From Phycisphaerae bacterium (lineage in GTDB: Bacteria; Planctomycetota; Phycisphaerae; UBA1845; UTPLA1), in NCBI GenBank assembly GCA_019636475.1, contig JAHBXN010000013.1, positions 1 through 64,000 of the forward strand: 64,000 nucleotides of DNA, given 5' to 3'. The number at the start of each line of letters is the position of its first letter. Position 1 is the first letter of the stretch. The notes beneath the pieces were generated by a model, which worked only from the letters and a program-made list of their open reading frames with translations, searched no databases and was not told the origin of the DNA. This document shows positions 24,517-61,901 of the stretch, piece after piece. The position numbers were made by a program, and so were the translations under genes.

Positions 24517-27500
24517 ATGCAGAGGCAGTGGCACTTGGACGTGATTCGGGTCGGCGTTTTGCTGTTCACGGCGACCGCGGCGACCGCGCAGCAGCCCTGG
24601 CCGGCCGAGAACTATTCAGACGCGGTGAATCTGACCAGCGTCGAAGGCCCGGGGGCGAATGATTTTCACGTCAACCTCAGCGGCGTTTTCTGGAATCCAG
24701 TCACACGAAAGTTGTGGACGTGCCGAAACGGCGGGCCGGACGGATCGAAGTTCTGGGTCCTGAAGGAGGACGGCGCCGGCGGTTTCGAAGTGGATACGAA
24801 AAACGGAAACCGCGGAGAATGGACCAATTTCGGCGATCTTGAGGACCTCACACAGGCCGATCTGAATGAGGAGACCATCTACCTTATTGTAGAGGGTGAA
24901 GAGCGAATCAAGGAATTTGATGTCTCCACCTATGGCACGGCCGTGCTGCGAAACAACTGGAACACCTCTCCGCACCTGCCGCTGTCCGGCGGCTCGGGCG
25001 CCGAGGGCATCGTGTTCGTACCCGATTCGTACCTGACCGCGGCCGGTTTCGTTGATCCCAGCGGAAATCCACGCGTCAGCCAGAACGGAATGGGAGGGTT
25101 GATGTTCGTGGCCCACCAGAACGGTGGGCGCGTGTACGTGTTCGATCTGAATCGGACAAACAGCACTTTCACGTACGTCGGCTCCTATAAGACAAACTTC
25201 AGTGAGAGTTGCGCTCTGGCGCTGGATCGATCAGACGGTCTTCTCTACATCTTCCACGGCGCAAACCACAATCGGACGGAAGTGACGACGATGGCCTCGG
25301 TGCCGTCGGGCGGTGAGCGACAGTTTGTCACGGTCACGACCTACCTGCCGCCGACCGGTTCACCTGGCAACAGCAACATGGAGGGAATCGCAGTCGTCTC
25401 GAATTCTGATTGTTCGAACAACCGCCGCAGGTTCTTTCTCGCGATCGACGATGGCGGTGCGGATTCTCTGTTCATGTTCGAGCAGTTTCCCTGCACCCAA
25501 TCGAATCCTGATGCGGACGGCGATGGTGTATTCGATGCGGACGATCAGTGTCCGAACACGCCGCCCGGCGCGACGGTAACTCCGAGCGGCTGCTCCTGCG
25601 CGCAGCTGGGGCAGACCGGACCGACGATTTCATCTCAGCCCTCTTCGGGGACTGTTTGCGCCGGCCAGACACGTCAGTTTTGCGTGGGCGCTTCAGGCAC
25701 CGGAGCGCTGAGCTATCAATGGCAGAAAGACGGCGTCAACATAAGCGGTGCAACGGCCGCTTGTTACACCGCGAATGGAGCGGGCGTTTATCGGTGCGTC
25801 GTGACCGATCTTTGCGGCAGTTCAACCAGTAACTCCGCGACGCTGACCGTCAACAGCGCGCCGAGCATCGCCTCGAATCCGAATAGCGCGGCGATCTGCG
25901 CGGGTCAGACAACGCAACTCTGCGTGAGCGCATCGGGAAGCGGAACGCTGACTTATCAATGGCGACGAGATGGCACGAACATCAGCGGCGCCACATCGGC
26001 ATGTTACACAACAGGCGCCGCGGGCAGTTACCAGTGTGTCGTGACGAACAGTTGCGGATCCGCGACGAGCGGTTCGGCAATCGTGACAGTGAATGCCGCG
26101 CCGTCGATTGATTCGCAGCCGGCGGGAGGCAGTGCGTGCAGCGGGCAGACCGTGCAACTCTGCGTGAACGCTTCGGGAACCGGGCCGATCACATATCAGT
26201 GGCAGTTGAACGGCTCTAACATTGGCGGCGCAACCTCGTCATGTTATTCCGCCGGGACGGCCGGTTCTTACCGGTGCGTCGCAACGAACGCATGCGGATC
26301 GACGACGAGCAACTCGGTCACGATCACCATCAATTCCGCGCCGTCCATCTCGACTCATCCGGCATCAGGAACGGTGTGTTCCGGTTCAACCCGGCAATTC
26401 TGTGTGACCGCGAGCGGCTCCCCAACGATGACATATCAATGGCAGCGGGATGGCGTCGATATCGCAGGCGCGACATCGTCGTGTTTTACAGCCGGACTGG
26501 CCGGCTCCTATCGTTGCGTCGTGACAAATGCCTGCGGCTCGGCCGTGAGCAATGCCGCAACTTTGACAGTAAACGGCGCTCCGGCGATTTCTTCGCAGCC
26601 GATCAGCGGAACCGCATGCAGCGGAAGCACCTTTCAATTCTGTGTGGCCGCCTTGGGCGCCGGACCTTTCACCTATCAATGGCAGCGCAACGGTGCCAAC
26701 GTGAGCGGGGCCAATTCATCCTGCTACACAACCGGCACGGCCGGTTCGTATCGGTGTGTCGTCTCAAACAGTTGCGGCAGCACGGCGAGTAATTCCGCGA
26801 ATCTCTCGATCGAAGCCACGATGCTCTGGTATCCGGACGCCGACGGAGATGGATTTGGTGCGGCCGGTGGAACAGCCCTCAGCGGTTGCACCCAGCCGCC
26901 CGGCTATGTTTCCAACAACCTCGACTGTGATGACGGGAACGCGAGTGTGAATCCGAACGCGTCTGACGTCTGCGGCGAAGATCGAAATTGCGATCGCGAG
27001 TTTCCGACCACCCGAACATGGTATCGCGACGCCGATGCGGACGGCTTCGGTGATTCTGGCACGACAGTCGTCGCCTGCGACCCGCCGAATGGCTATGTCG
27101 GCAACGCCGGCGACTGCGATGATTCAAATTCGATGGTCTATCCCGGAGCGACCGAGTTGTGTGATGGGCTGGACAATGACTGCAACCTCTTGGTGGACGA
27201 TCTGGGTGATTCGGACGGCGACGGCATCCCGGATTGCGAGGATGCATGTTCGGGTACCGCGGCCGGCCTGGTTGTCGATTCAGACGGCTGCGCATGTGAG
27301 CAGTTGAGTCCCGGAGACGACGACGGCGACGGCGTCAGCAATTGCGAGGACGCCTGCCCGTTTACTGCGGCGGGCGCCGGCGTTGATGCTCAGGGCTGCT
27401 CATGTCGCCAGATCGATTCTGGCGATGAGGACGGCGACGGTGTCGATAATTGCGACGATCAGTGCCCCGGAACTGTTGGGGGCGCGACCGTCGATGCCAA

Positions 27501-28044: not shown

Positions 28045-28999
28045 ATCGTCGGAGAAACGAAATCGCATTGTCACATCTGCGGCATCGAATCGATCGCCAT
28101 TCGGCGAGTGCTGAGAAGATTGTGGAAAGGATCGCGATCGGTGTGCGAAAGTACACCGCCCCAGTTCTCAACATCCGTTAAGCTGCACCACGTAAACTGA
28201 TGTAGACCGCAGTCGTATGTCAGTCGTCCTGCTACTGATTGAGACGCGCTGCGAGAAATTTACCCGCTGTATCGGGAATTCGCCCTAATTGCGCTGGTGC
28301 CCCTCAATAAAAATGAAGTCAGGAAGGCAGTTTGAATGGCACACGTGCGTCAGTTGTTTTGCGGCCTTTCACGCTGACATCCGATAACTGACAAGTTCTG
28401 CGCGGCAAAACTCTGCTGACGCTATTCGAAACTTCTGCTGATTCCGAACACGCCAATCGCCTTCTTTCTTTTACTTTTTATTAAGAGATCGATAAGATAC
28501 GACTAACGTGGTGCCGGTGAACCGATCGTTTCGCGGCATCAAAATTGGCGGGCCGAGATGACATCTATGTGGCATCATAAATCACGAAGTTGGGAAAGTG
28601 GCGATCATGGCCGCCTGAATCTTGAGTGGGGGGTAGGGATTACATATTGCGGCGGCGTTGAAACGCCGAGAGCGAATACAGCATTTGGGCCAATGTGATA
28701 ACTCAAATCTGACTACCGCGCGGTTCATTTGACCGCCAGTCGCAGTGCGTGCGACTTTGACAGCGGACGCATGGGCTTCGTCCGCCATGCAAAGACGGCG
28801 GAACGAGCGCCGGTCCGATTTGAGTTGTCCGATCTTTTTGGAAATACCTGAAGCATCGTGGCGCGGCGCCTGGTTGTGTGCAGATTGGCACAACCCGGCG
28901 GCGCGTGCGGATCGCGCGGCATGGATCCGCACGTCGTTCTAGCGGTCAGTCAAGGCGTCGGACGGCGCATCTCTGCCAGGGAAAAAAGGAACGAAGAAA
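28045..28999. other. 955-bp non-coding spacer inside the surface cluster
   Basis: The largest gap in the window. It is locally AT-richer than its flanks (for example the run around 28460-28510), and no reading frame has a ribosome-binding site or recognisable product. It contains a small hairpin at 28653-28668 (CGGCGT/ACGCCG) and a 10-bp perfect hairpin at 28904-28933. It probably carries the promoter and leader of the first CotH gene; a small RNA or a decayed gene is possible. Confidence 0.35.
28904..28933 (+). promoter_or_regulatory. Perfect 10-bp inverted repeat upstream of the first CotH gene
   Basis: CGTGCGGATC at 28904-28913 pairs with GATCCGCACG at 28924-28933 over a 10-base loop, 66 bp before the ATG at 29000. 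It could be a leader-RNA hairpin or a protein operator. There is no T-tract, so a simple terminator is less likely. Confidence 0.4.
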
Positions 29000-41000: not shown

Positions 41001-44000
41001 CCCGGCGCGTCGAACGGCGGCGAGCCAGCGACGATTGATCCGCTTCCGATTCTCGTCGGCGAAACCTGGAAATATTTCAAGGGCACGGCTGAACCAAGTC
41101 CGGGAAATCTCGCAGCGTGGCGACAGATCGCATTCGATGATTCGAGCTGGTCTGTCGGACCGACCGGCATTGGCTACACAGATTGTTCACCGGCGACCGT
41201 GCTCAACGACATGATCAATACCTACGCCAGTGTCTATCTGCGCAAAGCCTTTACCGTCGCAAGCCCGCAGCAAGTCACGTCCTTGACACTGACGATGGAC
41301 TATGACGACGGATTTGTTGCGTACCTGAATGGCGTGGAGGTCGCACGGCAGCATGTAACGGGATCGCCTCCAGCATACAATACGCTCGCCTCACCGCCGG
41401 GCGGAAATCACGAGTGCGGCACGGCTGAGGTTTTCGATATCAGCGCGTTCATCCCGGCTCTGGTTTCTGGAACAAACGTTCTTGCGATTCAGGGCCACAA
41501 TGCGACCCTCGCAAGCTCGGATTTTGTGCTGATTCCGACGCTCTCCAGCACCGAACTGCAGTGTTCCCAGCCATCGGAATGCGATGATGGCAACCCTTGC
41601 ACGATCGATTCATGCAATAACGGCGTTTGCGTCAACACGCCGGAGATCTGCCCGCCGGGGCAGGCCTGCAATCCGTCCAACGGCCAATGCGAGACGGCGC
41701 CGCAGACTCTCACCTTCCGCGACGGTCTGAGCGGCTACTCCTCGACGGCCGACACGTTTATTCGCCAGACGAATGTAAACCAGAACAACGGTTCAACGCA
41801 GGACCTGAGGTGGGACACCGAAGAGTCCGGCGCCAATACGCCGCAATACGCCCTGATCCGTTTCGACGACATTTTCGGCGGCGGCCCCGGTCAGATCCCG
41901 CCCGGAGCGACTGTTACGAACGCGACGCTGACCTACACCGTCGGCGGCGATACCAATGCGCCGGGCAATCCGGCCGGTCTGCATGAGTGCCTCGTCTCGT
42001 GGAATGAATCGACGGTGACGTACGCCAACTTCGGCGGTGACAGCGGCGTACAGAGTGACGAGTACGCGGCACCGACTGTTGCTACGTTGACGGCTCCTTC
42101 GGCGGCGACATTCACGGTGAATGTGACGAGCAGCCTCGCTGCGTGGAGTGCCAATCCCTCCGCCAATCTCGGATGGATTGCCGTCCCGTCCGGCACCGAT
42201 GGCGTACAGGTGCGGTCAAGCGACTATACGACGACACCGAGCCAGCGGCCGACTCTCGAAGTGACCTTCATGGTCGCGACGAATTGCGACGACGATCTGG
42301 ACTGCGAAGACGGCGATCCGTGCACCGTGGATGAATGTGTCGGTAGCGTATGTGTCAATACTCCGATTCCGGGTTGCTGCGACGAAGTCGCCGACTGCGA
42401 CGACGGCAACGCATGCACCATCGATGCCTGCGAAGCCGGCGCCTGCGTGCACACGCCGGTTTCCTGCGGTTCTGGTCTGGTTTGCAACCCGCAGAACGGT
42501 CTGTGCGAACCGCCCGCACCCATCGTGGTGACGTTCCAGCAGGGCGTCGGCGGCTATGTGTTGTCGCGGGATACGTTCCTGAATGCGAACGCCGTCACGA
42601 CAAGCAATGCGACGGTCACGCCGCTCATCATCGATGGCGGACCACCGGCAACGGATGAACGACATGCACTGCTGCGATTTGACGGGATTTTCGGCAACGG
42701 AGTCGGACAGGTGCCGCCGGGCGCGACGATTGAGTCCGCCACGTTGACGATCAATGTGACCAATGAGAGCACGACGGGTGCGAGCCTGCATCGGATGATC
42801 GGAACGTGGGAGGACTCGGCGACGTGGAGTTCCATGATTGGCGGCGTACAGGCGGACGGCATCGAGGCTGAAATCGTCGCCGACGTCAGCGGCGCCAGCG
42901 GCCTGGGAACGTATATGCTCGATGTCACCGCCAGTATCGAGGCATGGTCGGCCGGCGCGATCAACCGAGGCTGGGCATTTCTGCCCCTGGGCACGGATTC
43001 CTGGCAGTTCAGTTCAGCGGAGGCGACGACCGTGGGTCAGCGGCCGCTGCTGACCATCACCTATTCAGAAACGCCGGTCTCCGTCTGCGGCAATGGCACG
43101 CTTGAACCGGGGGAAGATTGCGACGACGGCGCTGGTAATTCCGATACCGATCCGGACGCGTGCCGCACCGATTGCACATCGCCCATGTGCGGCGATGGGG
43201 TCGTCGACTCCGGTGAAGCATGCGATGATGGTAATCTCGTCTCGCAGGACGGTTGCGAGCCCGACTGCACCCTCTCCCCGACTTTGACTATTCACCTGAG
43301 CATCGACGGTTTGATCGGCGATGGCGGTGGCGCGCCGTATGGCGTGACCGCGGCGCATCCGGACGGAAGTCAGCTTGATCGTTCAATCGAGCTCGTGCTT
43401 TCGCGCTGCACGCCACCAGCCGACGTTCGCAATGTTACGGTCACTTTCAGTCCGTCGGGACCAAATGGTGTGGGATCGGCCGTCCTGACGGGTCTCGGCA
43501 TCGACGAATCCATCGCATGGGTCAGCGCCCGCGAGGGTCACACACTTCGCACCCTGCGGGCCGTCACGTGGGTCAATGGCGAAGCCGTGGTCGAAATGCC
43601 GTTGCGCTCCGGTGACTTCCAGACCTCCGTCGCGCAGCAGGACGGCATCGTTGATATCGTCGATTTCTCAATTCTGTCAGCCCGATGGAATCAGTCGATC
43701 GACGCGTCGTCTGCGCTTGGCGCAGACGCCACGGGTGACGGCGACCAGTCAACGGCCGATTTCCAGGCCATTCAGGTCAATTTCTTCGCGACCAGCGATG
43801 CGCCGGACGGCTGTGGAAACGGCATCATCGATGACAGTCCCTTGCCTGACGAGCCGGTCGGACGGCCTTCGGACCGGCCGATCAAGGGCGAGTTCGGCGT
43901 GAATGCGGATGTCATCAATGCGGCATCCGGACTCGGAGTGAAGTCAGCCCGTCGCAGCATCAGCGTTGCGGAATTGAGCCTCCGAATCGGCAATGCGTCG

Positions 44001-44144
44001 AAGGCCGATCTGAATGGTGACGGCGTGGTGGATGTGAAAGACGTTCGTGCATTCGCGAACCGGCACCGTCTGCCGCTTTCGCAGAGGGTCATCGAAGAGC
44101 TGGAAGCAAGAACAAATGCATCTGACGGCGCGTTGAGGCCGTGA
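38070..44144 (+). CDS. Giant purple-acid-phosphatase-like surface protein with DNRLRE, lamin-tail and dockerin modules
   Basis: An exported protein of about 2024 residues; ASA-DT cleavage near residue 27. The start may be 38070 or the ATG 6 bp later, both following GGGAAAG. Order: DNRLRE about 28-220, FN3-like N-domain about 223-320, metallophosphatase about 323-640, two Big_5-like domains, lamin-tail about 842-989, a galactose-binding-like domain about 994-1164, Cys-rich linker, DNRLRE about 1211-1402, linker, DNRLRE about 1486-1668, Myxococcus-type Cys repeats (GNGTLEPGEDCDDG), then the shared C-terminal module from about 1739. All five phosphatase metal motifs are visible: VVGDGG, VGDIAY, LGNHE, FWHHPPY and CGHSHAYER. 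It should hydrolyse phosphomonoesters outside the cytoplasm. Gene overlap with the TPR protein implies joint function. Confidence 0.88.
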   Translation: MKMRIDNLIRTGGAFAFLLAAAVQASADTVTFREGVNLTGSATVYNGTSDTYLQQNPASVNTNNGAAADWGWDGDDPSGTGYDIYGLIRFDDIFGNATGQIPPGQEITEATLYLTVWDTGDVGSVREALMPWTESSTFASFCGASCDDGIEWGPQVATATATSATEIAINVTASVAAWQAGGTNNGWIIVPTGNGGVDVRSSEYATVSQRPRLVVRYGEGGPTIGTLIRQPYLQLGTPTSMTICWRSDVPTNSRVNYGTVQGSLTSTADDLTITSDHAITVSSLTPNTKYFYSVGSTTGVQGGGTAEHYFVTSPAGGSSQPFRIWVVGDGGNGSSTQVSVMNAMLTAAGVNRPNFAVHVGDIAYTSGTDEEFTNNHFAPYSPVLRNTVLWPTLGNHEGASTTSGGCWPLPCSPGPTVGPYYSAMVLPTNGQAGGVPSGTEAYYSFDYANVHFICLNSYEVSRSPAGPMAQWLQADLADTTKEWVVAFWHHPPYSKGSHNSDTESELVEMRQNIVPILEAGGVDLVLCGHSHAYERSYLIDGFYSTPTTVPGDGEILDNGDGRLSGDGAYQKPPGISAREGAVYVVAGHGGQSTGGSLNHPVMFHSEASFGSCLVDVNGNELTLRNIRIDGQITDNFTIIKGDLPPRVASESPPKEAVVSALSSISVTFDRAVTGVDAADLTVNGSPASSLTVNSPSEYVFAGFAAPGNGAVAVVIAPGGILDAGNPALAFNGAMWGYHIDNQPPVVASRTPAAGATVAVLPSITVHFSKPVTGVTADDLRVNGSPATSLVGVQNTAGPFIFSGYAVPPAGPVNVELLADSIVDDISQQFAGANWSYTLKQGLVINEFLASNNTVNADPNGEFEDWIEIYNPGTTTVDMSGMYLSDNLGFPSQYKIPDGVTIGPGAYLVFWCDSTPSQGPLHTNFNISRTGEELGLFDTAANGFAFIDGFAFGVQTTDISSGRYPNGFGDIVVLASPSPGASNGGEPATIDPLPILVGETWKYFKGTAEPSPGNLAAWRQIAFDDSSWSVGPTGIGYTDCSPATVLNDMINTYASVYLRKAFTVASPQQVTSLTLTMDYDDGFVAYLNGVEVARQHVTGSPPAYNTLASPPGGNHECGTAEVFDISAFIPALVSGTNVLAIQGHNATLASSDFVLIPTLSSTELQCSQPSECDDGNPCTIDSCNNGVCVNTPEICPPGQACNPSNGQCETAPQTLTFRDGLSGYSSTADTFIRQTNVNQNNGSTQDLRWDTEESGANTPQYALIRFDDIFGGGPGQIPPGATVTNATLTYTVGGDTNAPGNPAGLHECLVSWNESTVTYANFGGDSGVQSDEYAAPTVATLTAPSAATFTVNVTSSLAAWSANPSANLGWIAVPSGTDGVQVRSSDYTTTPSQRPTLEVTFMVATNCDDDLDCEDGDPCTVDECVGSVCVNTPIPGCCDEVADCDDGNACTIDACEAGACVHTPVSCGSGLVCNPQNGLCEPPAPIVVTFQQGVGGYVLSRDTFLNANAVTTSNATVTPLIIDGGPPATDERHALLRFDGIFGNGVGQVPPGATIESATLTINVTNESTTGASLHRMIGTWEDSATWSSMIGGVQADGIEAEIVADVSGASGLGTYMLDVTASIEAWSAGAINRGWAFLPLGTDSWQFSSAEATTVGQRPLLTITYSETPVSVCGNGTLEPGEDCDDGAGNSDTDPDACRTDCTSPMCGDGVVDSGEACDDGNLVSQDGCEPDCTLSPTLTIHLSIDGLIGDGGGAPYGVTAAHPDGSQLDRSIELVLSRCTPPADVRNVTVTFSPSGPNGVGSAVLTGLGIDESIAWVSAREGHTLRTLRAVTWVNGEAVVEMPLRSGDFQTSVAQQDGIVDIVDFSILSARWNQSIDASSALGADATGDGDQSTADFQAIQVNFFATSDAPDGCGNGIIDDSPLPDEPVGRPSDRPIKGEFGVNADVINAASGLGVKSARRSISVAELSLRIGNASKADLNGDGVVDVKDVRAFANRHRLPLSQRVIEELEARTNASDGALRP

Positions 44145-44222: not shown

Positions 44223-44253
44223 GAGTTGTCGCCCAACCTAACGAGGCATAGTC

Positions 44254-46311
44254 ATGGACATTGCGAAAATCAGAACCGCTTTGAAGGCAATCACTCTCGG
44301 GATCGGATTCAGCATCGCCGCTCCGGCGTTCGGCGCTACCGGCGAACTGCTGCTGCGAACCGGGAGCGAACCCGGCGCAGCCTGCCGCGAGGTCGGTAAC
44401 CAGGTGTTTGTCGAAGTGCAGGTAGACAACCTGTCAGATGCCATCAATGGTATTCAGGCGTCGATGACTTACGATGACAGTGTCATTGCACTCAATATCG
44501 CTGCTTCGACCGAGGAGGCCGGCTGGACCCTGATTTCGCTCACGGATAGCGGCGGATCGGTGCTCTATGCTGTGATCCGGCTGGGCGGGTCTGTCGGCCC
44601 CCTGTTGGGCACGCCGACAAAAGTGGCTACGCTCGTATTCGATGTCGTCGATCATGGTTCCACTGCGATCCAGCTTCAGAACTCCAACACGCTTCTGACG
44701 ACATCAGCCATGGACCCTGAGATCATCAACGGCGCCAACCTGACGCGCGTCGACTCGGGACTGGTCAGCGTGGATGGCGCGTCTGCTGGTAACAACGGCC
44801 CGGTTTGCGAAGGGACCGCCCTCTCGTTGAGTGCAACCGTTCCCGACGAATTTGCCAACCCGCCCTACACGTTCGTTTGGGCCGGTCCCGATGGCTTCAA
44901 CTCCACGGACCAGTCGCCGGAGGTATCGGCCTCTGCGACGCTTGCCATGGCAGGTGCCTACACGGTGACTGTCACAAATGACGATGGCTGCGAGTTCGTC
45001 GCGGAGACGGTCGTTACCGTCAATGCCAGCCCGACGCCGACGATCACGTCGGATCCGGGCGAGACGGTGTGCGCCGGGACGCCGGTGACGCTGGATGCCG
45101 GTGCGGGCTATGCGAGCTATCTGTGGTCTCCGGGTGGCGAGATCACGCAGACGATCGAGGTGACGTCGAGCGGCACATACTCGGTGACGGTGACGGATGG
45201 CAGCGGCTGCACGGGCTCGGACGACATCACGATCACGGTGAACGCGAACCCAACCGCGAATGCCGGTTTGGATATCGATGTTTGTCTTAGCGAAATCAAT
45301 CCCGTAATCGGTGGGTCACCGACCGCGGCGGGAGGCGAGGGCCCATACACCTACGCATGGACCGGCAGCGGCGCGTCGTTCCTTGATGATCCAGGCGATG
45401 CCAATCCGACCTTTGATGTTTCGGCAGCGGGTATCGGCTCTCATTTGATTTGCGTCGTTGTGACCGATCTCAACGCATGTATCAGCGCTTCTGATTGCGC
45501 GACCGTCGAGGTTCAGCCTTGCCTGACCGTGAATCTTACGATTCAAGGTCTTTCGGGCGACCCGAACAACAATCCGACTCCTTACGGCGCGCCCGGCGGA
45601 GCGGATCTGACGCGCGTGGTTGAGTTCGTACTGACGGACTGCGGTCTGCCGGTGGTCGCCGACAACCGAGCCGAGCCGGTGACGTTCGCCCCCGACGGCA
45701 CGGACGGATCGGCCAGCGTGGTATTGAGAAATGTTTCAACCGACGCGGTCTGGCTCAGCGCTCGTGAGGGTCATACCCTTCGACGGCTTGTCCCAGTCAA
45801 CCTGTCTTCGGGGACCGATGTCGTGGCGATGACACTAATCTCCGGTGATGTGCGAACTGCGACTGTCATGCAGGACGGCCTGATCGACATTGTCGATTTC
45901 TCGATACTTGCATCTCGATGGAACGAGAACATCGCCGCCGATCTGTCGATCGGGGCGGATGTAAATGGCGATGGCAAACAGAATACGAATGACTTCACCG
46001 CCATGCAGATCAATTACTTTATGACCGGCGATGAAGTGGACGGCTGCGGCGGGATGGGTGCCATTGGCCTTCCCGATGTGCCGACGAAGCCTGGAATACC
46101 GATCAAACGCGGCAAGAAAGAGGTCAGCGTTCGACGGCTTTCGGCGATCGCGCCGGATGCGGTATCGGCCGACATCACGGGTGACGGCATGGTTGATTCC
46201 AGGGACATCCGGCGATTTGCGGAGATTCATAATCTCCCCATCCTGCCGGAATTCGAGGCGAAACTGCGACGACTGGAGAATGGTGATTCGATTCGACTCA
46301 TAACGCCATGA
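44254..46311 (+). CDS. Exported cohesin-like, PKD/Ig and dockerin-like protein
   Basis: A 685-residue exported protein; signal peptide ends at PAFG (about residue 27). Residues about 30-175 are a cohesin-like beta-sandwich (VFVEVQVDNLSDAINGIQAS, TYDDSVIAL). Residues about 180-425 are three Ig/PKD-like or SprB-like repeats, the second being nearly identical in DNA to a repeat in the next gene. From about residue 423 is the C-terminal module shared with the two phosphatase proteins: a beta domain containing WLSAREGHTLR, paired calcium loops (QDGLIDIVDFSILASRW; DVNGDGKQNTNDFTAMQ) and a final EF-hand-like loop (DITGDGMVDSRDI). Carrying both cohesin- and dockerin-like parts, it could act as a connector. 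No catalytic motif was seen. Confidence 0.83.
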   Translation: MDIAKIRTALKAITLGIGFSIAAPAFGATGELLLRTGSEPGAACREVGNQVFVEVQVDNLSDAINGIQASMTYDDSVIALNIAASTEEAGWTLISLTDSGGSVLYAVIRLGGSVGPLLGTPTKVATLVFDVVDHGSTAIQLQNSNTLLTTSAMDPEIINGANLTRVDSGLVSVDGASAGNNGPVCEGTALSLSATVPDEFANPPYTFVWAGPDGFNSTDQSPEVSASATLAMAGAYTVTVTNDDGCEFVAETVVTVNASPTPTITSDPGETVCAGTPVTLDAGAGYASYLWSPGGEITQTIEVTSSGTYSVTVTDGSGCTGSDDITITVNANPTANAGLDIDVCLSEINPVIGGSPTAAGGEGPYTYAWTGSGASFLDDPGDANPTFDVSAAGIGSHLICVVVTDLNACISASDCATVEVQPCLTVNLTIQGLSGDPNNNPTPYGAPGGADLTRVVEFVLTDCGLPVVADNRAEPVTFAPDGTDGSASVVLRNVSTDAVWLSAREGHTLRRLVPVNLSSGTDVVAMTLISGDVRTATVMQDGLIDIVDFSILASRWNENIAADLSIGADVNGDGKQNTNDFTAMQINYFMTGDEVDGCGGMGAIGLPDVPTKPGIPIKRGKKEVSVRRLSAIAPDAVSADITGDGMVDSRDIRRFAEIHNLPILPEFEAKLRRLENGDSIRLITP
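45025..45254 (+). repeat. Copy 1 of a 230-bp near-identical repeat
   Basis: This 230-bp tract, encoding one PKD/Ig-like repeat, matches 47406-47635 in the next gene with two mismatches and no gap. Surrounding sequence of the two genes is much more divergent. Confidence 0.95.
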
Positions 46312-46397: not shown

Positions 46398-48305
46398 ATG
46401 AATACAAGGAGTCTTTCGTTGAATACGAGCATGCGAACGATAGGCGGCCTTAGCGCGATGCTGATTGCATTGGCTTGGGGTGAATCGGTGCGGGCCGGCC
46501 AGTCGGCGATGATGAGCTGTCAACTCACGAGTTCGACCGCTGCACCCGGTTCGTCGGTTGGGTGTGACTTGGTCTTGACAGACGCAGTCGGCGTGCGGGC
46601 GTATCAGACGCGCATTGCGATCACGCGCACGAGCGGCTCCGGCACCGTCTCAGTCACCTGCCCGGGCGGCGTTTCCATCGATTCGGGCCGTAGCGATTAC
46701 ATATTCTTCGGCCAGCTCAACGCATTTCCGACAACCAACTGCGGCGAACGGAAGGCTGCGTCGGCGTTGCTCTCGGGGGGGGTGACTGTGGGCGGATCGC
46801 CGGCGTATCTGTCGACGTATTCGCTGACTGTTTCGCCGGACGCCGCGCCCGGGAGCACTTTCGAGATTGAAGTTCTTCCTCTGAATGGATCAAATGGATC
46901 GCAACTTGCGAGTTCCACGAACGACCCGATTCCGTTCGGCGTTTCAAGTGCCTGCGTCCTCACGATCTCGTCGCCGACGCTTACGTTTCATGCGCCGGGT
47001 TCCACGCTGTGCACGCCGGCGCAGGCGTCTTTCGAAGTGACGCTTGAGGTATCGGCGCTCAACGATGCCATAAACGGTGTGCAGGCGCTTTTCAATTATG
47101 ATCCCAACAAACTCCTTCTCTCAAGCATTACTCCCGGCGACGGCGCGGGTTCGCCCTGGGATAGCGCAGCCCCGGTGCACTTCAATGACTCCAACGGCTC
47201 CGTGATTTATGCGCTGACATTGATCGGTTCTCAGTCCATGTCAGATGCCGTCGTCGCGACGCTTCATTTCAATGCGATTTCGTCCGGGAGCACCTTCGTC
47301 GAATTCGATGCTCCCTCGCCGCCATTTGAAACGAAACTGACCCGCGCGGTTGATAGCCTGACCATCACGCCGATCACCATTAATTCTGGGACCATTCAGA
47401 TTGCAGCCAGCCCGACGCCGACGATCACGGCGGATCCGGGCGAGACGGTGTGCGCCGGGACGCCGGTGACGCTGGATGCCGGCGCGGGCTATGCGAGCTA
47501 TCTGTGGTCTCCGGGTGGCGAGATCACGCAGACGATCGAGGTGACGTCGAGCGGCACATACTCGGTGACGGTGACGGATGGCAGCGGCTGCACGGGCTCG
47601 GACGACATCACGATCACGGTGAACGCGAACCCAACGGTCACGATCATGGCATCCTCGGAGGAGATTAACTGCGCGGGTACGCCGGTCATACTCGATGCCG
47701 GTCCGGGCTATGCGAGCTATCTCTGGTCGCCAGGTGGCGCGACGACGCAGACGATTCAGGCGCTTGTCCCCGGTCTTTATTCGGTGACGGTGACGAACGC
47801 GAACGGCTGCTCAGCGACCGACGATATCACCATCGTCGGCTCAAACGCACTGAGTTGCACCATCACGACCAATTCGTCTGTATGCCAAGGCTCAACATAC
47901 AATGTTGCGTCCGTGGCGGATGCCGGAGCCGGCGCCACGTACATCTGGGCCATTTCGGGCGGCGCGATTCAGTCCGGACAAGGTACATCGTCGATCGTGT
48001 ACAGCGCGACATCTCTTGGGCCGGTGGTCCTGTTTGTCTCAATCAGCACGCCCAGCCAGTGCTTCTGCCTGGGTTCCACACAGGCATCGGTTATTCCGAG
48101 TCGATGCGGAGACATGAACAATGACGGATTGCGTGATGGCCGAGACATTCAGCCGTTCACGAACGCGATCTTGAATCCTGGATCGCTAAGTCCTGGTGAT
48201 TTTTGTGCAGCGGACATGGATCATGATGGTGAACTGGAAATGACTGATGATCTGGCATTGTTCGTGAACTGTCTGCTGACGCAGTCGTGCAGTTGCGTTC
48301 CTTAG
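46398..48305 (+). CDS. Exported double-cohesin-like, PKD/Ig and dockerin protein
   Basis: A 635-residue exported protein. The ATG at 46398 follows a GGGG run and opens a plausible signal peptide (MRTIGGLSAMLIALAWGESVRA); an earlier TTG frame start lacks a ribosome-binding site. Two cohesin-like domains follow, about 35-195 and 205-345, the second with FNYDPNKLLL and PGDGAGSPWD. Three PKD/Ig-like repeats come next, the first almost identical in DNA to one in the preceding gene. The C-terminus is a standard two-loop dockerin-like domain (DMNNDGLRDGRDIQ; DMDHDGELEMTDD) ending CLLTQSCSC. The CLL...C.C ending recurs in the second CotH protein. No enzyme motif was found. Confidence 0.83.
   Translation: MNTRSLSLNTSMRTIGGLSAMLIALAWGESVRAGQSAMMSCQLTSSTAAPGSSVGCDLVLTDAVGVRAYQTRIAITRTSGSGTVSVTCPGGVSIDSGRSDYIFFGQLNAFPTTNCGERKAASALLSGGVTVGGSPAYLSTYSLTVSPDAAPGSTFEIEVLPLNGSNGSQLASSTNDPIPFGVSSACVLTISSPTLTFHAPGSTLCTPAQASFEVTLEVSALNDAINGVQALFNYDPNKLLLSSITPGDGAGSPWDSAAPVHFNDSNGSVIYALTLIGSQSMSDAVVATLHFNAISSGSTFVEFDAPSPPFETKLTRAVDSLTITPITINSGTIQIAASPTPTITADPGETVCAGTPVTLDAGAGYASYLWSPGGEITQTIEVTSSGTYSVTVTDGSGCTGSDDITITVNANPTVTIMASSEEINCAGTPVILDAGPGYASYLWSPGGATTQTIQALVPGLYSVTVTNANGCSATDDITIVGSNALSCTITTNSSVCQGSTYNVASVADAGAGATYIWAISGGAIQSGQGTSSIVYSATSLGPVVLFVSISTPSQCFCLGSTQASVIPSRCGDMNNDGLRDGRDIQPFTNAILNPGSLSPGDFCAADMDHDGELEMTDDLALFVNCLLTQSCSCVP
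47406..47635 (+). repeat. Copy 2 of a 230-bp near-identical repeat
   Basis: Differs from 45025-45254 at only two positions (T to G and T to C). A third, clearly diverged unit follows directly at about 47636-47830 in the same frame. Confidence 0.95.
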
Positions 48306-52200: not shown

Positions 52201-54070
52201 TGCGACGGCCGCCGCCGCGAACACTCAGGGAATCTCCGCGCTGATTCTGAACGAATACAACGGCGTATCGAGTACCCGATTCCTGAAAGATAATGCGAGC
52301 GACACCCATTTCGGCCGTGTCGTCGGCAATGGCGGTGACTGGTTTGAGTTGGTCGTGACACAGGACAATCTTGACATTCGCGGCTGGCAGCTTGAGGTCC
52401 GCGACAATGTCGGCAACGCCGCTGCGACGCTGGATGTACTGACGTTCACGCAACACCCGATCTGGTCGAACCTGCGGCGCGGCACGATTATCACTGTTGC
52501 CGAAGATGTGCCGGAGGACGTGAGTTACGATCCTGCCGGGGGGGACTGGTGGATCAATGTTCGCGCGAACAATTCCGGAACCGGAATCTACATCACCCCT
52601 GACAACTTTCCGGTCAGCAATGATAACTGGCAACTGACCATTGTGGACCAGAACGGCTTTGTGATATTTGGTCCGGCGGGTGAAGGGGTACAGCCTGTTT
52701 CTGGCATTGGTAACGACGAGGTATGCAAGCTCGAAGAGAATCCAAGCCAGTTCATCAGTCCGCAGTCCGATTATCGTGATGGTTCGTCCAGCACGTTCGG
52801 ATCTCCGAACATCTATTCCGGCGGAACTCTGGTGCAATCGTTCGACGCGCTCAGGAACATTTTCGATACATGCACGGGGCCGAACGAGTGTGACGACGAA
52901 GATCCCTGCACGGTCGACGCGTGCGATAACGGCGAGTGCACGCATACACCGATTGCACCCTGCTATCTGCTGACCGCACGCCTTACGGACCTTCAGGGGC
53001 CTTCAGCGGTTCTGCTCGCTGATACCGGCGATACGGTCGAGGTCGCGATTGACAGTTCGGGGCTTGGACAACCGGTTGCGGCCGTCCAGTTCACCCTGCA
53101 TTACGATCCAGCGAGGCTGCAATTCCTGAGCATGACGCCCGGCGACGGCGCGGGTTCGCCCTGGGATGGCGCATCGGTTCTGCTCGACAACGACAATCCA
53201 GGGACTGGATTGTATGCCTGCGATTTGTCACTGGGTGGCGGATCGACCGCGAGCGCTTCGACCGCGGCGAGGGTGTCCTTCGTCGTGATAGACGACGGGT
53301 CCATTGATGAGCCGACGCGCCTGGAGTTCATTCCCGGTTGCACTGCCCACATCGCCAAGTTCACGAATGCCGAGGGGGACGTGATTCTCCCGAGTTTTGT
53401 GAATTCCCCGTCGATTGTCACCGGGGCCTACCCGACGTTGTCGCTCGAGTTGTCGGAGTGTTCGCGATGCGTGCGGGTATTGGATTCTGTCACGATACAA
53501 CTCCGCGCCTCGGATCTGGATGATCCGATTAACGGCGTGCAGGCGCTGCTTCACTTTGATCCGGAAATTCTGGGTTCGCCGACCGTTCAGGCCGGCGATG
53601 GGGCGGGCTCTCCCTGGGATGCCGCGATCGTGACACCGATTGAATCGGCGCCCGGCGATCTGACGCTCGGTTGCGTGCTGCTTGGTTCGTCCGCCTCGAC
53701 CGATTCAGTTGTGGCGAGACTGACATTTCCGGTGGTCTCCAACGGAACAACGGCGATCAGTTTCCGTCAGGGGCAGGCGCCGTTCCACACGAAGTTGACG
53801 CTGTCTTCGGACAATACCACGGTCTATCCGCGGGAGTATGCGAGCCTGCCGATCCTGATCGATGGGGTGTCGAAGGCGGATATGAATGGGGACGCCCTCC
53901 GGGACGGTGCCGACATTCAGCGGTTCGTGGAAGTCATTGTGGATCCGTTTTCGGCCGGGGCCGCGGAGCGATGCGCTGCGGATATGAATCTTGACGGCGA
54001 ACTGAGTCTCGATGGTGACATCGAGCTGTTCGTCGAATGCCTGTTGTCCGAGGTTTGTCCCTGCCAGTGA
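49226..54070 (+). CDS. Second giant CotH-kinase surface protein with lamin-tail, cohesin-like and dockerin domains
   Basis: An exported protein of 1614 residues from the ATG at 49226, which directly opens a signal peptide (YILILTLGAALFERPASA). The frame can extend 30 residues upstream to an ATG overlapping the previous stop. Order: lamin-tail domain about 26-188, Ig/chitobiase-like segment, CotH kinase about 300-690, lamin-tail domains about 700-855 and 860-1000, a lamin-tail-related segment to about 1208, one Cys-rich linker, two cohesin-like domains about 1250-1405 and 1408-1545, and a two-loop dockerin. The CotH motifs are closer to consensus than in the first copy: IIHNNDQVAKNYFLYRD and MQAWDNDLTFG, with the two metal-binding Asp residues. 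Both cohesin domains carry a GDGAGSPWD motif. It should phosphorylate surface or secreted proteins. Confidence 0.88.
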   Translation: MTRRLVYILILTLGAALFERPASADVVINELMYHPNSPTNTDEWDFIELHNPDGAAVDLSGWCIDGVGFCFSAATSIDAGGFLVVAKNAAAFQVKYGIPADGEFPGTLSNAGERIVLRNAASTIVDEVNYDDVPPWSPVADGEGPSIERIVTGSNGDTPRNWAACVAVAGHTARAVNSVTAAGLPPWISNVSHTQDVQPSQAIQVVADVEDGLTIQLFYRLGFAAEVSIPMHDDGAHGDGDADDGRFGAEIPGQPANTLVRYRIVVVGANGEMRYPRLDDTATYDGTVVADPTLSSQLPIFHWYVDPAVYAAALSHFLTDQTEPAVLFFNGRLYDNIRFRVRGQSSRSFPKKHWKFHMPQGHDFSEPSLIPIPFDQFNLQSNFADKSNLREILSYESFRDSGAPMNSAFPIRLQQNGSFFGLYTFVQAMDDDYLTVNQIDENGAWYKAFDDCRLRPLSQLPARYEKNTRLYEGYEDLHAFLTGINVPNTPTRRNFLFDNLDVPQTLNYIAVNTIIHNNDQVAKNYFLYRDTEGTGRWAMQAWDNDLTFGRNYGAGGAAVLTDGIWADNDDIGLPNRSPSHPLFGDSEHQKFDALWNQLIDVIHETPELRQMYYRRLRTLADQLLASDYYETRIAELSSLIAPEAALDVLRPWGQYGQQQTLSQAIALITDDYLPRRRNHLLNTHRVPGEIPAAQSPNPKVVINEIMYKPTSGDSAEFVELYNPSATESVDLSGWRLDGLALTIHPGTVILPGGYALFVKHDPTFRTHYGAGKYVAAQYSGNLSDSGERIALIDRNGNEVDVVEYESISPWPAGANGGGASLELIDASRDNNRVGNWAASLVAGGTPGAANSTAGSIAALAPVYVNEALAVNDGEHVDEALEADPWLEIYNGSLEPIDLGGYYLSDNYANPMKWPIPQGTIVCGKGWLIFWADSDIDQGALHTNFTLSPLGGAIGLYSPEGILIDYLNYPAAIVGISYGKFPDGGSQKNSLPRATAAAANTQGISALILNEYNGVSSTRFLKDNASDTHFGRVVGNGGDWFELVVTQDNLDIRGWQLEVRDNVGNAAATLDVLTFTQHPIWSNLRRGTIITVAEDVPEDVSYDPAGGDWWINVRANNSGTGIYITPDNFPVSNDNWQLTIVDQNGFVIFGPAGEGVQPVSGIGNDEVCKLEENPSQFISPQSDYRDGSSSTFGSPNIYSGGTLVQSFDALRNIFDTCTGPNECDDEDPCTVDACDNGECTHTPIAPCYLLTARLTDLQGPSAVLLADTGDTVEVAIDSSGLGQPVAAVQFTLHYDPARLQFLSMTPGDGAGSPWDGASVLLDNDNPGTGLYACDLSLGGGSTASASTAARVSFVVIDDGSIDEPTRLEFIPGCTAHIAKFTNAEGDVILPSFVNSPSIVTGAYPTLSLELSECSRCVRVLDSVTIQLRASDLDDPINGVQALLHFDPEILGSPTVQAGDGAGSPWDAAIVTPIESAPGDLTLGCVLLGSSASTDSVVARLTFPVVSNGTTAISFRQGQAPFHTKLTLSSDNTTVYPREYASLPILIDGVSKADMNGDALRDGADIQRFVEVIVDPFSAGAAERCAADMNLDGELSLDGDIELFVECLLSEVCPCQ

Positions 54071-54108: not shown

Positions 54109-54131
54109 CGAACCGCTGACTGGGCGGTTCG
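54109..54131 (+). terminator. 8-bp stem-loop after the second CotH gene
   Basis: CGAACCGC at 54109-54116 pairs perfectly with GCGGTTCG at 54124-54131 over a 7-base loop, 38 bp past the stop codon. There is no clear T run, so a terminator or 3'-end stabilising hairpin is likely but not certain. Confidence 0.45.
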
Positions 54132-54251
54132 GAATAGTGCACGATTCGTCGTGCGGGGGAAAGGCTCGGTATCGCGCGCCGAGATCGTAAGCGCGCGTCG
54201 CCATCGAGTGCCTTTATTCGGGCAATCGTGAAAATCAGAGAAAGCGGAACG

Positions 54252-57200: not shown

Positions 57201-60200
57201 GCCGGAACGGTGGACACTTACCTTCATGCCGGCAGCGCCAACACCAATCTTGGCGCGGCCGTTGAAGTTCAGGTCGATGCACCCGGCGGCACGCCCGCCG
57301 ATGCCAAGCACGGCCTGATCCGATTCAACAACATCTTCGGCACCGATGCGAACCAGATTCCGCCTGGCGCGACGATTACGTCGGCCGTGCTGACCGTGAA
57401 CGTGACGAACGCAAGCGTTGATTTGCGATCGTTCCATCGCATGTTGCAGACATGGGAGGCTTCGGACACATGGAACTCGCGCGTGAACGGTATTCAGGCT
57501 GACGATGTCGAAGCCCGGGCGGCCGCGGATTCCACATCAGCGTTTACGGGCACGGGTTTAACAAATGTCGATGTGACTGCCGATCTCGTGGCGTGGCAGG
57601 GCGGTGCCAGTCGCTATGGCTGGGCCATTTTCTGTGCCAATACGGATGGCTGGGCCTTTTCGTCCGCGGAGGCAGCGACGCAGTCCCTGCGTCCGAAGTT
57701 GACCGTGAGCTATCAGCCGGCGCCACCCTGCCTTTCCGACCTAGCGTGTGATGACGGCAGCGCCTGCACGGACGATGCGTGCGTTGATTACCTGTGTGTG
57801 CATACGCCGGTCGATTGTGATGACTCGAACCCGTGCACCGTTGACACGTGCGATGCGCAACTTGGTTGTCAATATGCGCCGGCATCCTGTGACGACGGTG
57901 ACGCCTGCACCGTTGACGACTGCGATCCGGAGGTCGGATGCACTCACGAACCAATCGATTGCGACGACGGTGATCCCTGTACCAATGATTCGTGTCAGCC
58001 CGCCAATCTTGCGGCACTGACTCTGTCGGGGACCGGCCAATATGTGAATGTCGGTACGGGTGCGGCCGTGACCAATTTCGGCACCGACAGTTTCACAATC
58101 GAGGGCTGGGTTCGCCCGGCAGCGAACGCAGGCGGAACGAGTGTCAGCCTGTTCCGGCTGGGGCGCACCGGCGCCTATTCGCAGGCCATCGTTCAACTGC
58201 TTGCGAATACCAACACCATTGCTGCCTCTGTTGAGACGACGACCGCGTCGACCCAGGTTGACACCGCGACGGGCATTGCGATTCCGCTGAATCAGTGGTC
58301 TCATTTTGCCGCGGTGGCCGACCGGACCCCGGGGGCCCAACGACTGCGGCTTTACGTGAACGGGAATCTCGTGAGCGATGTCAGTGCAACGGCATGGGGA
58401 AACAATCCGGTTTCCAGCAGCGACGCCAGTGTCATCGGCGCGACCCGTGCGGATACCGGCGCTCTCAACGCTTACTTCAACGGCGCGCTCGACGAGGTGC
58501 GTCTCTGGAGTACGGCCCGGTCACAAGCCGAAATTCAGGCCGGTATGAACATTCAGATCACTTCTGCTGCCGGCCTGGCCGCACGATGGGGACTCAACGA
58601 GGGCGCGGGTACGACGGCATCTGATTCCGTCAACGGTAATCACGGCGTGTTGACCGGAGGCGCCTCCTGGCTCACCACCGGTGTTGTCTATCTTGGGGCG
58701 GGCGGCTGCGTCAACGCGCCGATTCCGAATTGCTGTGCCGATGTTTCCGATTGCGACGATGGCGACCCATGTACGATTGACACGTGCGAGGGTGGATCGT
58801 GTGTCTTTACGCCGGTGGACTGCGGCATCGGCCAGGCCTGCAATCCGGGGACAGGACTCTGCGAAGTCGTGCCGATCGTCGTGACATTCCGGCAGGGCGT
58901 GAACGGTTATGCCGGCGCGATTGATACCTATATCGAACCGGCCAATCCGAATACGAATCGATCTGCGGCGACGCCGTTGATTGTTGATCTTTCGCCTCTC
59001 ACTCAAACTTTGATGCGTTTCGACGACATTTTTGGATTTGGTACTGGCCAGATTCCGCCGGGCGCGACGATCCAATCCGCCACGCTCACAATTAACGTGA
59101 CGAATGAAACGCAGGTCGGCGCGCGGTTGCATCGAATGTTGCAGACATGGTCATCGACTGACACGTGGAACTCACTGGTCGGCGGCGTTCAGGCTGACAA
59201 TGTCGAAGCGCTGGATACGCCCGATGTGACACTGACGGTTGTTCCGACGGGTACCCAGGTCGTGACCGTCACCAACAGTCTTCAGGCCTGGTCGGATCAG
59301 CCGGCAACCAATTTCGGATGGGCATGGCTGCCGCCGGCCGCGGACGATTCGTTGCAGTTTGGTTCGGCGGAGGCTTCGCCGTCATCCAACCGGCCGCTGC
59401 TCAGCGTGACCTATCTCTACACGATCGGATGTGACGACGCTTCCGATTGCGACGACGGCAACCCATGTACGGTTGACACCTGCGAGGGCGGATCGTGTGT
59501 CTTCACTCCGATTCCGGGTTGCTGCATCAATGCCGGACAGTGCGACGACGGGAATCCGTGTACCGACGACAGTTGCGTGGACAATGAGTGCGTTTTTGCG
59601 CCCAACTCGGCAACCTGTGACGACGGTGATGCGTGTACAGAGGATGATACCTGCTCGGAGGGCGCCTGTGCCGGCACGGCGATCGAGGACTGCTGCAACG
59701 ATTCGTCCGACTGTGACGACGGCAACCCTTGTACGATCGACGATTGCAGTCTGCCGAATATTGCGGCACTGTCGTTTGACGGCGTCAACGACTATGTGAC
59801 GATGGGCGTGGCATCCGGACTGGGGACAACAGCATTCACGGTCGAATGCTGGTTTAAGTGGACTGGGGGATCCGCCACGGCGTCGACCGGCTCGGGCGGA
59901 CTGGACAATGTCATTCCGCTCGTCGCCAAAGGGCGCTCAGAGCAGGACTCGCCGGCCAATCTCAACTGCAATTATTTCCTTGGCATTGGGAACAACAGGC
60001 TGGTCGCCGACTACGAAGATTCCGCCGCCGGCCTGAATCACCCGGTTGCCGGTTCGACGACGATCACTCAAAACGTCTGGCACCATGCCGCGTTGACGTT
60101 CGATCCGGCGGGCGGCGCTGTCACGTGGACCCTGTATCTCGACGGCGTCGCTGAAACACTGTGCAGCACCAGTTCCTGCACGTCGTGTAATACGAACTGC

Positions 60201-61901
60201 TCAATCAATCCGAGTGCAATACCCGAATCCCAGAGCATCCAGCATTTCTCCATTGCAACCGGACTGAATTCCACCGGCGTACCGGCCGGATTTTTTGGCG
60301 GGCTCATTGACGAGGTACGAGTCTGGAACTACGCGCGGAGCGCGTCCGAAATTCAGGGCGCGATGAACGTCGAAATCGAGACGGCTCCCGGTCTGCTCGG
60401 CCGATGGGGACTGAATGAGGGCACAGGCACGGTTGTCGCCGATTCGACGACTCTGGCTGAGAACGGCACGCTGACCTCCGGGCCGACCTGGGTTGTGAAT
60501 GACCTTCCGGCTTTCGGCGGCGGCGGATGCGTGCACACGCCGATTCCGAACTGCTGCCTCGGCGCCGGCGACTGCGATGATGGCAATCCCTGCACCGTGG
60601 ATGTTTGCGATAACGGTGTCTGCGTGAATACACCTGTTGCTGACGGCACGGCCTGTTCCAACGGCGAGTTTTGTGACGGCGTTGAGACATGCCAAGCCGG
60701 CGTTTGTGTTGACGGCGCCGATGCGTGCGTCGATCTTGCGCATTGCGATGAGATCAACGATCTGTGCCTTGAGTGCCTGTCAAACGGGGAGTGCGATGAC
60801 AGCAATCCATGCACGATCGACACATGCGAAAACAACACTTGCGTAAACACCCCAATCGCGCCGCCGGATGCGGCGATCTCGGTGGGCTTGACAATGTGTG
60901 TTGGCACGAGCGCGAGTGCCGCCGTCGCTGATGCCGGCATCGGTGCGACCTACGACTGGAGCATTCTCGGCGGCACGATTGATGCGGGACAGGGCACCCG
61001 CTCAATCACTTTCACGGCCAACTCATCGACGGGAGTGGACATCGGCGTGATCGTTTCTGATTCGGTCGGCTGCGCCGCCGCTGATTTCGCGAGTGTATCG
61101 ACAACGTATTGCGCGGACATCACCGTGGAGATTCCCGGATTGAGCATGAACCCGCCGGCGATCGTCGGTGTGACGCGCGAAACGATCTTCACGTTCTACA
61201 GGTGCGATACGGGATTGGTCGCCGACGTGCGTGTGGTCGATGTCGACTATGACGCTGCCGGCGCGATCGGCGCATCCACGGTACGGTTGACCGGGGTTCA
61301 TCCGAATACCACCTGGTTGAGTGTGCAGACGGGGCATACGCTTCGGAAAATGGCCGCTATTACGATCGCACCATCCAGCATCGCCGAGGCGACGGTGTCG
61401 TTGGTCAGCGGGGATCTTCGGACGCAACTGATGCCGCAGGACGGGATCATCGACATATTGGATTTCGCGATTCTGGCTTCGAGATGGGATTCCAATGTCA
61501 CAGATTGCCAGACCGGTTCTTCCGAGGACTGCGATTATGGCGCGGATGTGACCGGCGACGGAAAACAGAACACAGCGGATTTCCAGGCGATTCAGATCAA
61601 CTACTTCCTGACGAGCGATCCGCTTCCAGGTTGCGGCGGCGGCATCGGACTACCGCCGTCGGTTCCGGACGAAGGAATCGAGATCGGCGGGACGAGCCGA
61701 CCATTGCCTTCAAGGTCGCCGAATCGAAGCATCCGGACGACCGATGCGCTTCGTCTCATTCCACAAGCCGGTCTTGCCGATCTCACGAATGACGGCGTCA
61801 TTGACTCCAAAGATATTGAGCTGTTTGCCAGGAAGAAGAATCTGACGCTGCGGCCCGAGTTTCGAGCGAAGCTCGATGCGATCGGCGTCTCGAAGCAGTG
61901 A
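54252..61901 (+). CDS. Giant LamG/DNRLRE surface protein with calcineurin-like phosphoesterase and dockerin module
   Basis: An exported protein of 2549 residues; signal peptide ends at AMA (about residue 25). The ATG at 54252 follows AGCGGA; a GTG 24 bp upstream is less likely. Order: LamG-like domain about 28-270, DNRLRE about 277-465, metallophosphoesterase about 517-842, Cys-rich linker, DNRLRE, linker, LamG, linker, DNRLRE, linker, LamG, linker, PKD-like domain, then the shared C-terminal module (GHTLR beta domain, loops [10 protein letters not shown] and [13 protein letters not shown], final EF loop [13 protein letters not shown]). Phosphoesterase motifs are [23 protein letters not shown] and [10 protein letters not shown]. 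The usual GHxH ends GHVP, so one metal ligand is lost or supplied elsewhere. Each LamG pairs FTVECWF with ARWGLNEG. Confidence 0.86.

Follow-up and report, generated by a model that had tools for sequence, protein, structure and literature searches.

A cohesin, X-dockerin and CotH gene set in a Phycisphaerae genome encodes a candidate non-cellulosomal surface complex

Organization of the locus

The 64,000 nt stretch analysed here (the window; positions 1 to 64,000 of contig JAHBXN010000013.1, GenBank assembly GCA_019636475.1) comes from the 4.4 Mb genome of a Phycisphaerae bacterium. Bases 24505–61901 are occupied by nine open reading frames (ORFs) on the plus strand, designated P1 to P9 (Table 1), that encode large proteins with cohesin, dockerin, CotH kinase-like and phosphatase domains. 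A preliminary description had recognized this collinear block, which stands, but had counted only eight genes, the short P7 having been overlooked. All nine proteins have a signal-peptide-like start when examined by eye and are predicted to be exported; ORF starts were taken as the first possible start codon in every frame, and several of the ORFs need a later one.

The genes from P2 to P9 are separated by 33, -47, 109, 35, 63, -4 and 157 bases in turn, and these short gaps and overlaps fit an operon. P1 lies 955 bp upstream of P2, and the interval (28045–28999) contains no ORF reaching 150 aa and no Rfam match, making it a possible promoter region. A long homologue of P1 adjoins the related cluster in the genome designated G014 (G014:C2:477104-480598) and, by eye, ends in the same tail of Cys, a hydrophobic segment and Arg as P1, which resembles a sorting signal. 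Because of the 955 bp gap, and because this homologue is on the opposite strand to its cluster, P1 is probably outside the operon. P1 also has neither a cohesin nor a dockerin match. A terminator scan of 44000–62400 placed no plus-strand site inside the intergenic gaps from P4 to P9, but with 22 sites found on both strands against 15.1 (sd 3.8) expected, the scan carries little weight. No known RNA element reached the gathering score in 24000–64000. The GC content is even (0.56–0.61 in 4 kb steps), and so gives no sign of recent import.

Table 1. Genes and modules of the locus, in positions of the window
Feature	Position	Strand	Length (aa)	Description
P1	24505..28044	+	1179	Signal-peptide-like start, five Ig domains, MopE-type metal-binding repeats
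P2	29000..37048	+	2682	LTD x2, CotH, beta-helix, Dicty_CTDC repeats, DNRLRE x2
P3	37082..38089	+	335	TPR protein, export-signal-like start
P4	38043..44144	+	2033	DNRLRE, purple acid phosphatase with PAP N-terminal domain, LTD, DNRLRE x2, C-terminal X-dockerin
X4	43272..44141	+		X-dockerin of P4
P5	44254..46311	+	685	N-terminal cohesin, Ig/PKD-like domains, C-terminal X-dockerin
C5	44341..44778	+		Cohesin of P5
X5	45514..46308	+		X-dockerin of P5; AlphaFold target, type II X-dockerin match
P6	46347..48305	+	652	COHL2, cohesin, PKD-like, C-terminal dockerin
C6b	46956..47411	+		Cohesin of P6
P7	48369..49139	+	256	Small cohesin COH7, C-terminal dockerin
P8	49136..54070	+	1644	LTD, CotH, LTD x2, cohesin x2, C-terminal dockerin
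C8a + C8b	52964..53866	+		Tandem cohesins of P8
P9	54228..61901	+	2557	LamG x3, DNRLRE x3, metallophosphoesterase-like domain, Dicty_CTDC repeats, C-terminal X-dockerin
X9	61104..61898	+		X-dockerin of P9

In agreement with the preliminary description, two CotH domains (P2, P8), lamin tail domains (LTD; P2, P4, P8) and LamG (P9) were found above the Pfam or NCBIfam cut-off, searches of the same databases matched DNRLRE (P2, P4, P9) and CBM96 (P2, P4), and no catalytic glycoside hydrolase domain exceeded the cut-off in the nine proteins. P2 additionally includes a dockerin-like stretch, seen by eye, and a C-terminal module of a type designated COHL2. Adhesion is a plausible role for the LTD, LamG and DNRLRE modules.

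Cohesins and dockerins

Five modules were supported as cohesins, those in P5, P6 and P8 (two) by sequence and the one in P7 by fold. The Pfam family PF00963 matched P6 and P8 above the cut-off, and at E<=1e-3 these were the only two places matched in the genome. The cohesin of P5 rests on likeness to that of P6 (BLASTP, 1.1e-10). A profile of the four modules of this type (COH) recovered the same four when run against the genome, with a best other E of 0.39, and a 15-module COH profile matched 21 distinct sequences in the PDB at E<=0.01 (best 2.9e-6), every one of which is named as a cohesin or cellulosomal scaffoldin. Pfam gave no cohesin match for COH7, the N-terminal part of P7, but hhalign links it to COH (1.8e-5), and an AlphaFold model of P7 (pLDDT 84) gave cohesin-bearing chains, as judged by their titles, as the top 27 Foldseek matches and as all 50 rows of the VIA comparison (best Z 15.9). 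By profile or by fold, both COH and COH7 classify as cohesins. COHL2, found in P2 and P6, is a third type of module. The largest number of adjacent cohesins in the locus is two, in P8.

Six of the proteins end in a dockerin, which is plain in P6, P7 and P8 and preceded by an X-module (X-dockerin) in P4, P5 and P9. Dockerin_1 matched P4, P5 and P9 above the cut-off and fell slightly short of it in P6 (21.9 vs 22.9), and the NCBIfam 'GC-type dockerin' model matched P5, also under its cut-off. For P7 and P8 Pfam gave no dockerin match, and their dockerins were assigned from BLASTP likeness to that of P6 (2.7e-8 and 1.7e-21, respectively). Cohesins and dockerins had been proposed to occur in the same proteins and the same locus, and profile searches did place both folds, with Pfam support for the cohesins of P6 and P8 and the dockerins of P4, P5 and P9 and likeness or fold for the rest. 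Four of the nine proteins (P5, P6, P7 and P8) carry both a cohesin and a dockerin.

The module shared by the C-termini of P4, P5 and P9 is 265–290 aa in length. The X-module ahead of these three dockerins was missed in the first reading, as was a third EF-hand motif (of the type ADxxxDGxxDxxD) behind them, which was seen by eye downstream of the dockerin in 20/20 aligned sequences. In the three locus X-dockerins, the usual first ligands are missing from the first EF loop, which appears by eye to be degenerate. When the genome was searched with an X-dockerin profile, nothing significant was found beyond the three source modules (best other E 0.006). An AlphaFold model of X5 (pLDDT 83, pTM 0.80) was examined using Foldseek, and all eight matches at E<=0.001 were chains with type II X-dockerins. 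The VIA comparison, which covers mainly residues 1–174 and barely includes the third EF-hand, gave eight type II X-dockerin rows with Z of 11.8–13.1 and rmsd of 2.3–2.6 over 135–142 residues, while the next row scored 6.5. In the model, an Ig-like X-module packs on the dockerin to form one folded unit, and X5 is predicted to be a dyad of the type II kind.

Conservation in the family and order

The gene set was compared across 17 genomes of the family (the present genome, G000, and 16 others) and 114 genomes of the order. Presence was scored at E<=1e-8 for COH and X-dockerin in the order, E<=1e-5 for COH7 and COHL2, and E<=1e-3 for CotH in the family. In the family, COH at 1e-8 was found together with strong X-dockerin matches in four of the 17 genomes (G000, G013, G014 and G015), and the same four contain COHL2. 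CotH was found in all four and in one of the 13 others, G009, where the match is marginal (3.8e-5). The genes for P5, P6 and P7 are clustered in each of the four COH genomes (4/17 of the family). The preliminary description had looked to co-occurrence of the gene set. The clustering of the trio in three other family genomes makes an extracellular complex a reasonable proposal. The strong cluster is absent from 13/16 of the other family genomes.

The order of genes in G013 is P2-P3-P4-P5-P6-P7-P9, with the cohesin of the P5 protein detected when filters were off. G014 has a P2-type protein, P5, P7, a P8-type protein and P6, and in G015 the contig opens partway through a P5-like protein, leaving only its X-dockerin part, and continues with P6, P7, P8-type, P9-type and a phosphatase protein. 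Hence the trio is constant among the four clusters and the enzyme-bearing giants vary. The TPR protein of the P3 type found between the P2 and P4 types in G013 (G013:C58:24250-25245) shares the start 'HPGxHHDIERV' with P3. The P8-type protein has a dockerin at its end in the present genome, but G014 and G015 have an X-dockerin there, as if these tails were exchangeable.

In the order, COH was found in 38 genomes and X-dockerin in 59. X-dockerin was present in 37/38 genomes with COH and in 22/76 without (Fisher 3.8e-13, uncorrected for kinship). At least 80/102 COH matches were within 10 kb of a listed X-dockerin start, and at least 54/102 within 1.5 kb, but the genomes are related, 25 of the 102 matches come from one genome and several of the loci also contributed to the profiles, so these counts are not independent. 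The presence of COH depends on the threshold, as a broader profile used with filters off detects weaker modules (3e-4 to 9e-14) inside X-dockerin clusters of G005, G006, G010 and G012. This favours a link between COH and X-dockerin. The system is greatly expanded in one genome of the order, G067, which has 25 COH and 23 X-dockerin matches in open frames as long as 7590 aa.

COH7 loci and X-dockerins

COH7 was found in 12/17 family genomes. The sequence surrounding COH7 was searched for X-dockerins in 17 loci with filters off, and a further stretch with two matches (G014:C1:3144771-3148300) lies outside this survey. A full-length X-dockerin match was found in 12 of the 17. Four included split and weak matches, with E of 2e-6 to 3e-4 for the EF-hand part and 5e-4 to 0.07 for the X part, and one is at the end of a contig. 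G004:C338, at a contig edge, was covered over 1.5 kb only. As a control, 28 dockerin loci outside the block in the present genome were examined, using stretches of about 3 kb that are shorter than most of the COH7 stretches and in some cases overlap one another; 11 gave X-dockerin profile matches (protein E threshold of 1e-2), all confined to the EF-hand part and with a best value of 2.3e-4.

Small COH7 proteins with PEP-CTERM-like tails were found in G005, G010, G013 (at C19) and in L087, which is isolate RS_12_20, a relative within the order. Larger COH7 proteins in G015 and G016 have tails with Cys, a transmembrane segment and Arg. Sorting tails of these kinds are known as PEP-CTERM and MYXO-CTERM. 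P7-type proteins look like anchor receptors. Because X-dockerin genes adjoin COH7 loci and some of the relatives' COH7 proteins have membrane-sorting tails, COH7 is a candidate anchor socket.

These associations bear on the possibility that the genes encode neighbouring adhesins that act independently. The cohesin-fold modules would then serve as beta-sandwich spacers and the EF-hand tails as calcium staples. Such adhesins would fit the wide occurrence of large surface proteins that combine Ig, PKD, LTD and LamG modules, and also the abundance of dockerins in family genomes that lack strong COH-type cohesins. However, the present genome has COH and X-dockerin at a single locus, across the order they are together in all but one of the COH genomes, and full-length X-dockerin genes lie beside COH7 in 12 of the 17 loci surveyed, with weak matches in four more. 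We therefore regard independent adhesins as quite improbable.

CotH and phosphatase domains

The CotH domain of P8 aligned with the spore-coat CotH structure 5jd9 (1.2e-10). The CotH mutants D228Q and D251A are reported to be inactive (PMC7821199). By our own mapping, which used the 23-residue spacing between them, these residues correspond in 5jd9 to the Asp of 'NFDG' and the Asp of 'WDYD'. P8 and its counterparts in G014 and G015 have Asp at both essential positions in the alignment, whereas P2 and its G014 counterpart have Glu at the D228 position and Asp at the D251 position. Further CotH domains in G013 and G015 are located on other contigs.

Two phosphoesterases had been proposed. The domain in P4 belongs to the purple acid phosphatases, matching 6gja at 9e-23, and by eye has all five metal-ligand motifs of this family (DxG, GDxxY, GNH[DE], xxxH and GHxH), as DGG, GDIAY, GNHE, WHH and GHSH. 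The same motifs are found in G013, and also in G015, where GNHD replaces GNHE. The second, in P9, is less secure: a metallophosphoesterase-like pattern (D-x-Q, GD, GNHD, H, GH) was recognized by eye and is conserved in G013 and G015, but no metallophosphoesterase Pfam match was listed at E<=1 and a PDB sequence search also gave no match at E<=1.

The phosphatases could be the business end of a phosphate-scavenging surface complex, in which lectin-like modules would hold phosphorylated polymers near the cell and CotH would be an accessory. The intact metal-binding motifs of P4 and the conservation of the P9 domain are in keeping with this, as is a further phosphatase protein, with a Dockerin_1 match, encoded directly downstream of the G015 cluster. 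However, the five proteins of the G014 cluster include both CotH domains and neither phosphatase, so the phosphatases appear to be dispensable to the cluster. CotH is also the enzyme found in all four COH genomes of the family, the phosphatases having had no genome-wide search. Phosphate scavenging as the principal role is thus unlikely.

Comparison with known systems

The novelty of the proposed complex is tempered by an earlier model. As proposed by Andrei et al. (2019; PMC6461901), the 'planctosome' is a hypothetical, cellulase-free complex of Nemodlikiaceae (Phycisphaerae) made up of an LTD/TSP3/P-domain/cohesin anchor, a dockerin/hyaline-repeat/cohesin adaptor and peptidases. As described there, it shares with the present locus its occurrence in Phycisphaerae, large exported proteins with LTD, cohesin and dockerin, the presence of cohesin and dockerin in one protein, and a lack of evidence for cellulose degradation. 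In the locus, LTD and cohesin are combined in P8, and cohesin and dockerin in P5 to P8. The locus differs in having X-dockerins, CotH, purple acid phosphatase, LamG and DNRLRE where the published model has TSP3, P-domains, the hyaline repeat domain and peptidases; at E<=1, Pfam listed no TSP_3, HYR, P-domain or peptidase match for any of the nine. A single protein in L087 contains COH7, TSP3, COH, HYR and X-dockerin. As this resembles the planctosome architecture, the present locus appears to be a variant within the same wider system, and we read it, from its domain content, as a CotH- and phosphatase-bearing member of the planctosome kind in which CotH, phosphatase, LamG and DNRLRE modules replace TSP3, HYR and peptidases.

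If the locus were instead the scaffold of a degradative planctosome, dockerin-bearing peptidases or hydrolases encoded elsewhere would attach to it. The L087 cluster, with its TSP3, cohesin and HYR modules as in the published model, would suit this, and 35 of the 39 Dockerin_1 matches (E<=1e-3) in the present genome are outside the locus. The absence of matches to the peptidase and the other planctosome domains in the nine proteins counts against it, and so does the independence of dockerin number from the presence of COH. In the family, 29–92 Dockerin_1 matches were found in 16/17 genomes and 13 in the incomplete G009 (some of these counts are lower bounds), with a range of 13–76 in genomes without COH at 1e-8 and 37–92 in those with it. 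A degradative scaffold is therefore doubtful. Because dockerin counts are similar with and without COH, the locus cohesins are not supported as a hub for all dockerins of the genome.

Like the type II cohesin/X-dockerin pairs of clostridial cellulosomes (2b59, 4wi0, 5m0y), the locus has a C-terminal X-module and dockerin of the same fold. The clostridial type II X-dockerin is on the primary scaffoldin. In contrast, the locus X-dockerins are on three proteins, two of them over 2000 aa, and have a third EF-hand and a degenerate first EF loop, and their partner is predicted. P7 resembles the autonomous cohesin ScaG of Ruminococcus flavefaciens (4wkz, by its title a cohesin with X-Doc domains) in being a small single-cohesin protein with a matching fold (Z 11.9). 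It differs in the additional dockerin, in place of which some P7-type relatives have PEP-CTERM-like tails.

The spore-coat CotH kinase differs from that of P8, which keeps both Asp, in that the latter is embedded in a 1644 aa protein with LTD, cohesins and a dockerin, and from that of P2 in the Glu noted above. CotH proteins with dockerins are known in clostridial and fungal cellulosomes, and that pairing alone is not new. Here, P8 also has LTDs and cohesins of its own, and no glycoside hydrolase is encoded in its locus. A cellulosome was ruled out because the locus has no glycoside hydrolase domain and no multi-cohesin scaffoldin; Pfam likewise listed no CBM3 match at E<=1 among the nine. CotH and the lamin tail domain are named together in a paper on synthetic cellulosomes. 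Other non-cellulosomal cohesin/dockerin cases are described in ANME archaea (PMC9012536) and Cloacimonadota (PMC8542988).

A model for the complex

We consider it moderately probable that P2 to P9 are a single operon encoding a calcium-dependent surface complex of a non-cellulosomal kind, linked by plugs and sockets and anchored through COH7 and X-dockerin. The domains, the predicted folds, the order of the genes and their co-occurrence were established by computation and give good support to a genetic unit whose cohesins and X-dockerins are real. Export, the operon, calcium dependence, pairing, head-to-tail assembly, COH7 anchoring, phosphate chemistry and the targets of the enzymes we infer. 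The exported proteins would end in plugs, either the dockerins of P6, P7 and P8 or the X-dockerins of P4, P5 and P9, that dock onto sockets of the same protein set, namely COH in P5, P6 and P8 and COH7 in P7. As each bears a socket and a plug, P5, P6, P7 and P8 could join head to tail, and branches would terminate in P4 and P9. The X-dockerins most likely have COH7 as their receptor, and the two would be the probable anchoring pair, as type II cohesin and X-dockerin are in cellulosomes, because some of the relatives' COH7 proteins have membrane-sorting tails. The cargo would be the CotH kinase-like domains, the purple acid phosphatase and the LTD, LamG and DNRLRE/CBM96 modules, which may serve in adhesion or matrix work and in local phosphate chemistry, either phosphorylating partners in the complex or stripping phosphate from organic matter.

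Several observations weigh against this model. Many other COH7 proteins have dockerin or dockerin-like ends, as P7 does, and no anchor. P7 of the present genome is itself without a membrane tail, and the only possible anchor in the set is P1, which lacks cohesin and dockerin. The strong cluster is missing even from G016, which belongs to the same genus as G014 and G015, and CotH is missing from the X-dockerin-bearing genomes G005, G006, G010 and G012. The hhalign comparison of COHL2 with COH, using a shallow two-sequence alignment, gave no significant link. The 22 order genomes with X-dockerin and no COH at 1e-8, the loss of both phosphatases from the G014 cluster proteins, the kinship of the genomes and the short control stretches belong here too. 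As dockerins are as common in genomes without COH, dockerins alone prove nothing, and this, together with the patchy presence of the set and the lack of an anchor in P7, makes too strong a claim unwarranted. A phospho-tuned, daisy-chained surface polymer would be a distinct class of cohesin-dockerin machine. Several of its subunits would have both a socket and a plug, its X-dockerins would be locked on small COH7 anchors and the two CotH domains would act on the polymer itself, with extracellular phosphorylation controlling assembly or adhesion; we hold this to be only a slim possibility.

Cohesin-dockerin pairs have long been seen outside cellulosomes without a clear job, whereas the conserved set described here allows a socket, a plug and a likely anchor to be identified and gives a clear prediction of COH7 and X-dockerin as partners. 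X-dockerin dyads are placed in non-cellulosomal planctomycetes, in over half of the order genomes examined (59/114), and CotH kinase-like domains are linked to an extracellular scaffold. In literature searches joining X-dockerin or X-module with Planctomycetes or Phycisphaerae, neither X-term occurred among the best matches inspected, which is weak evidence of absence.

Other features of the window

Outside the block, at 16269–17948, is a gene for a protein with three GH3 domains. These are of the plant auxin-conjugating type and do not belong to glycoside hydrolase family 3. The Cys-rich Dicty_CTDC repeats of P2 and P9 are concentrated in the block, with 20 of the 22 matches in the genome (E<=0.01) falling between 33821 and 60857.

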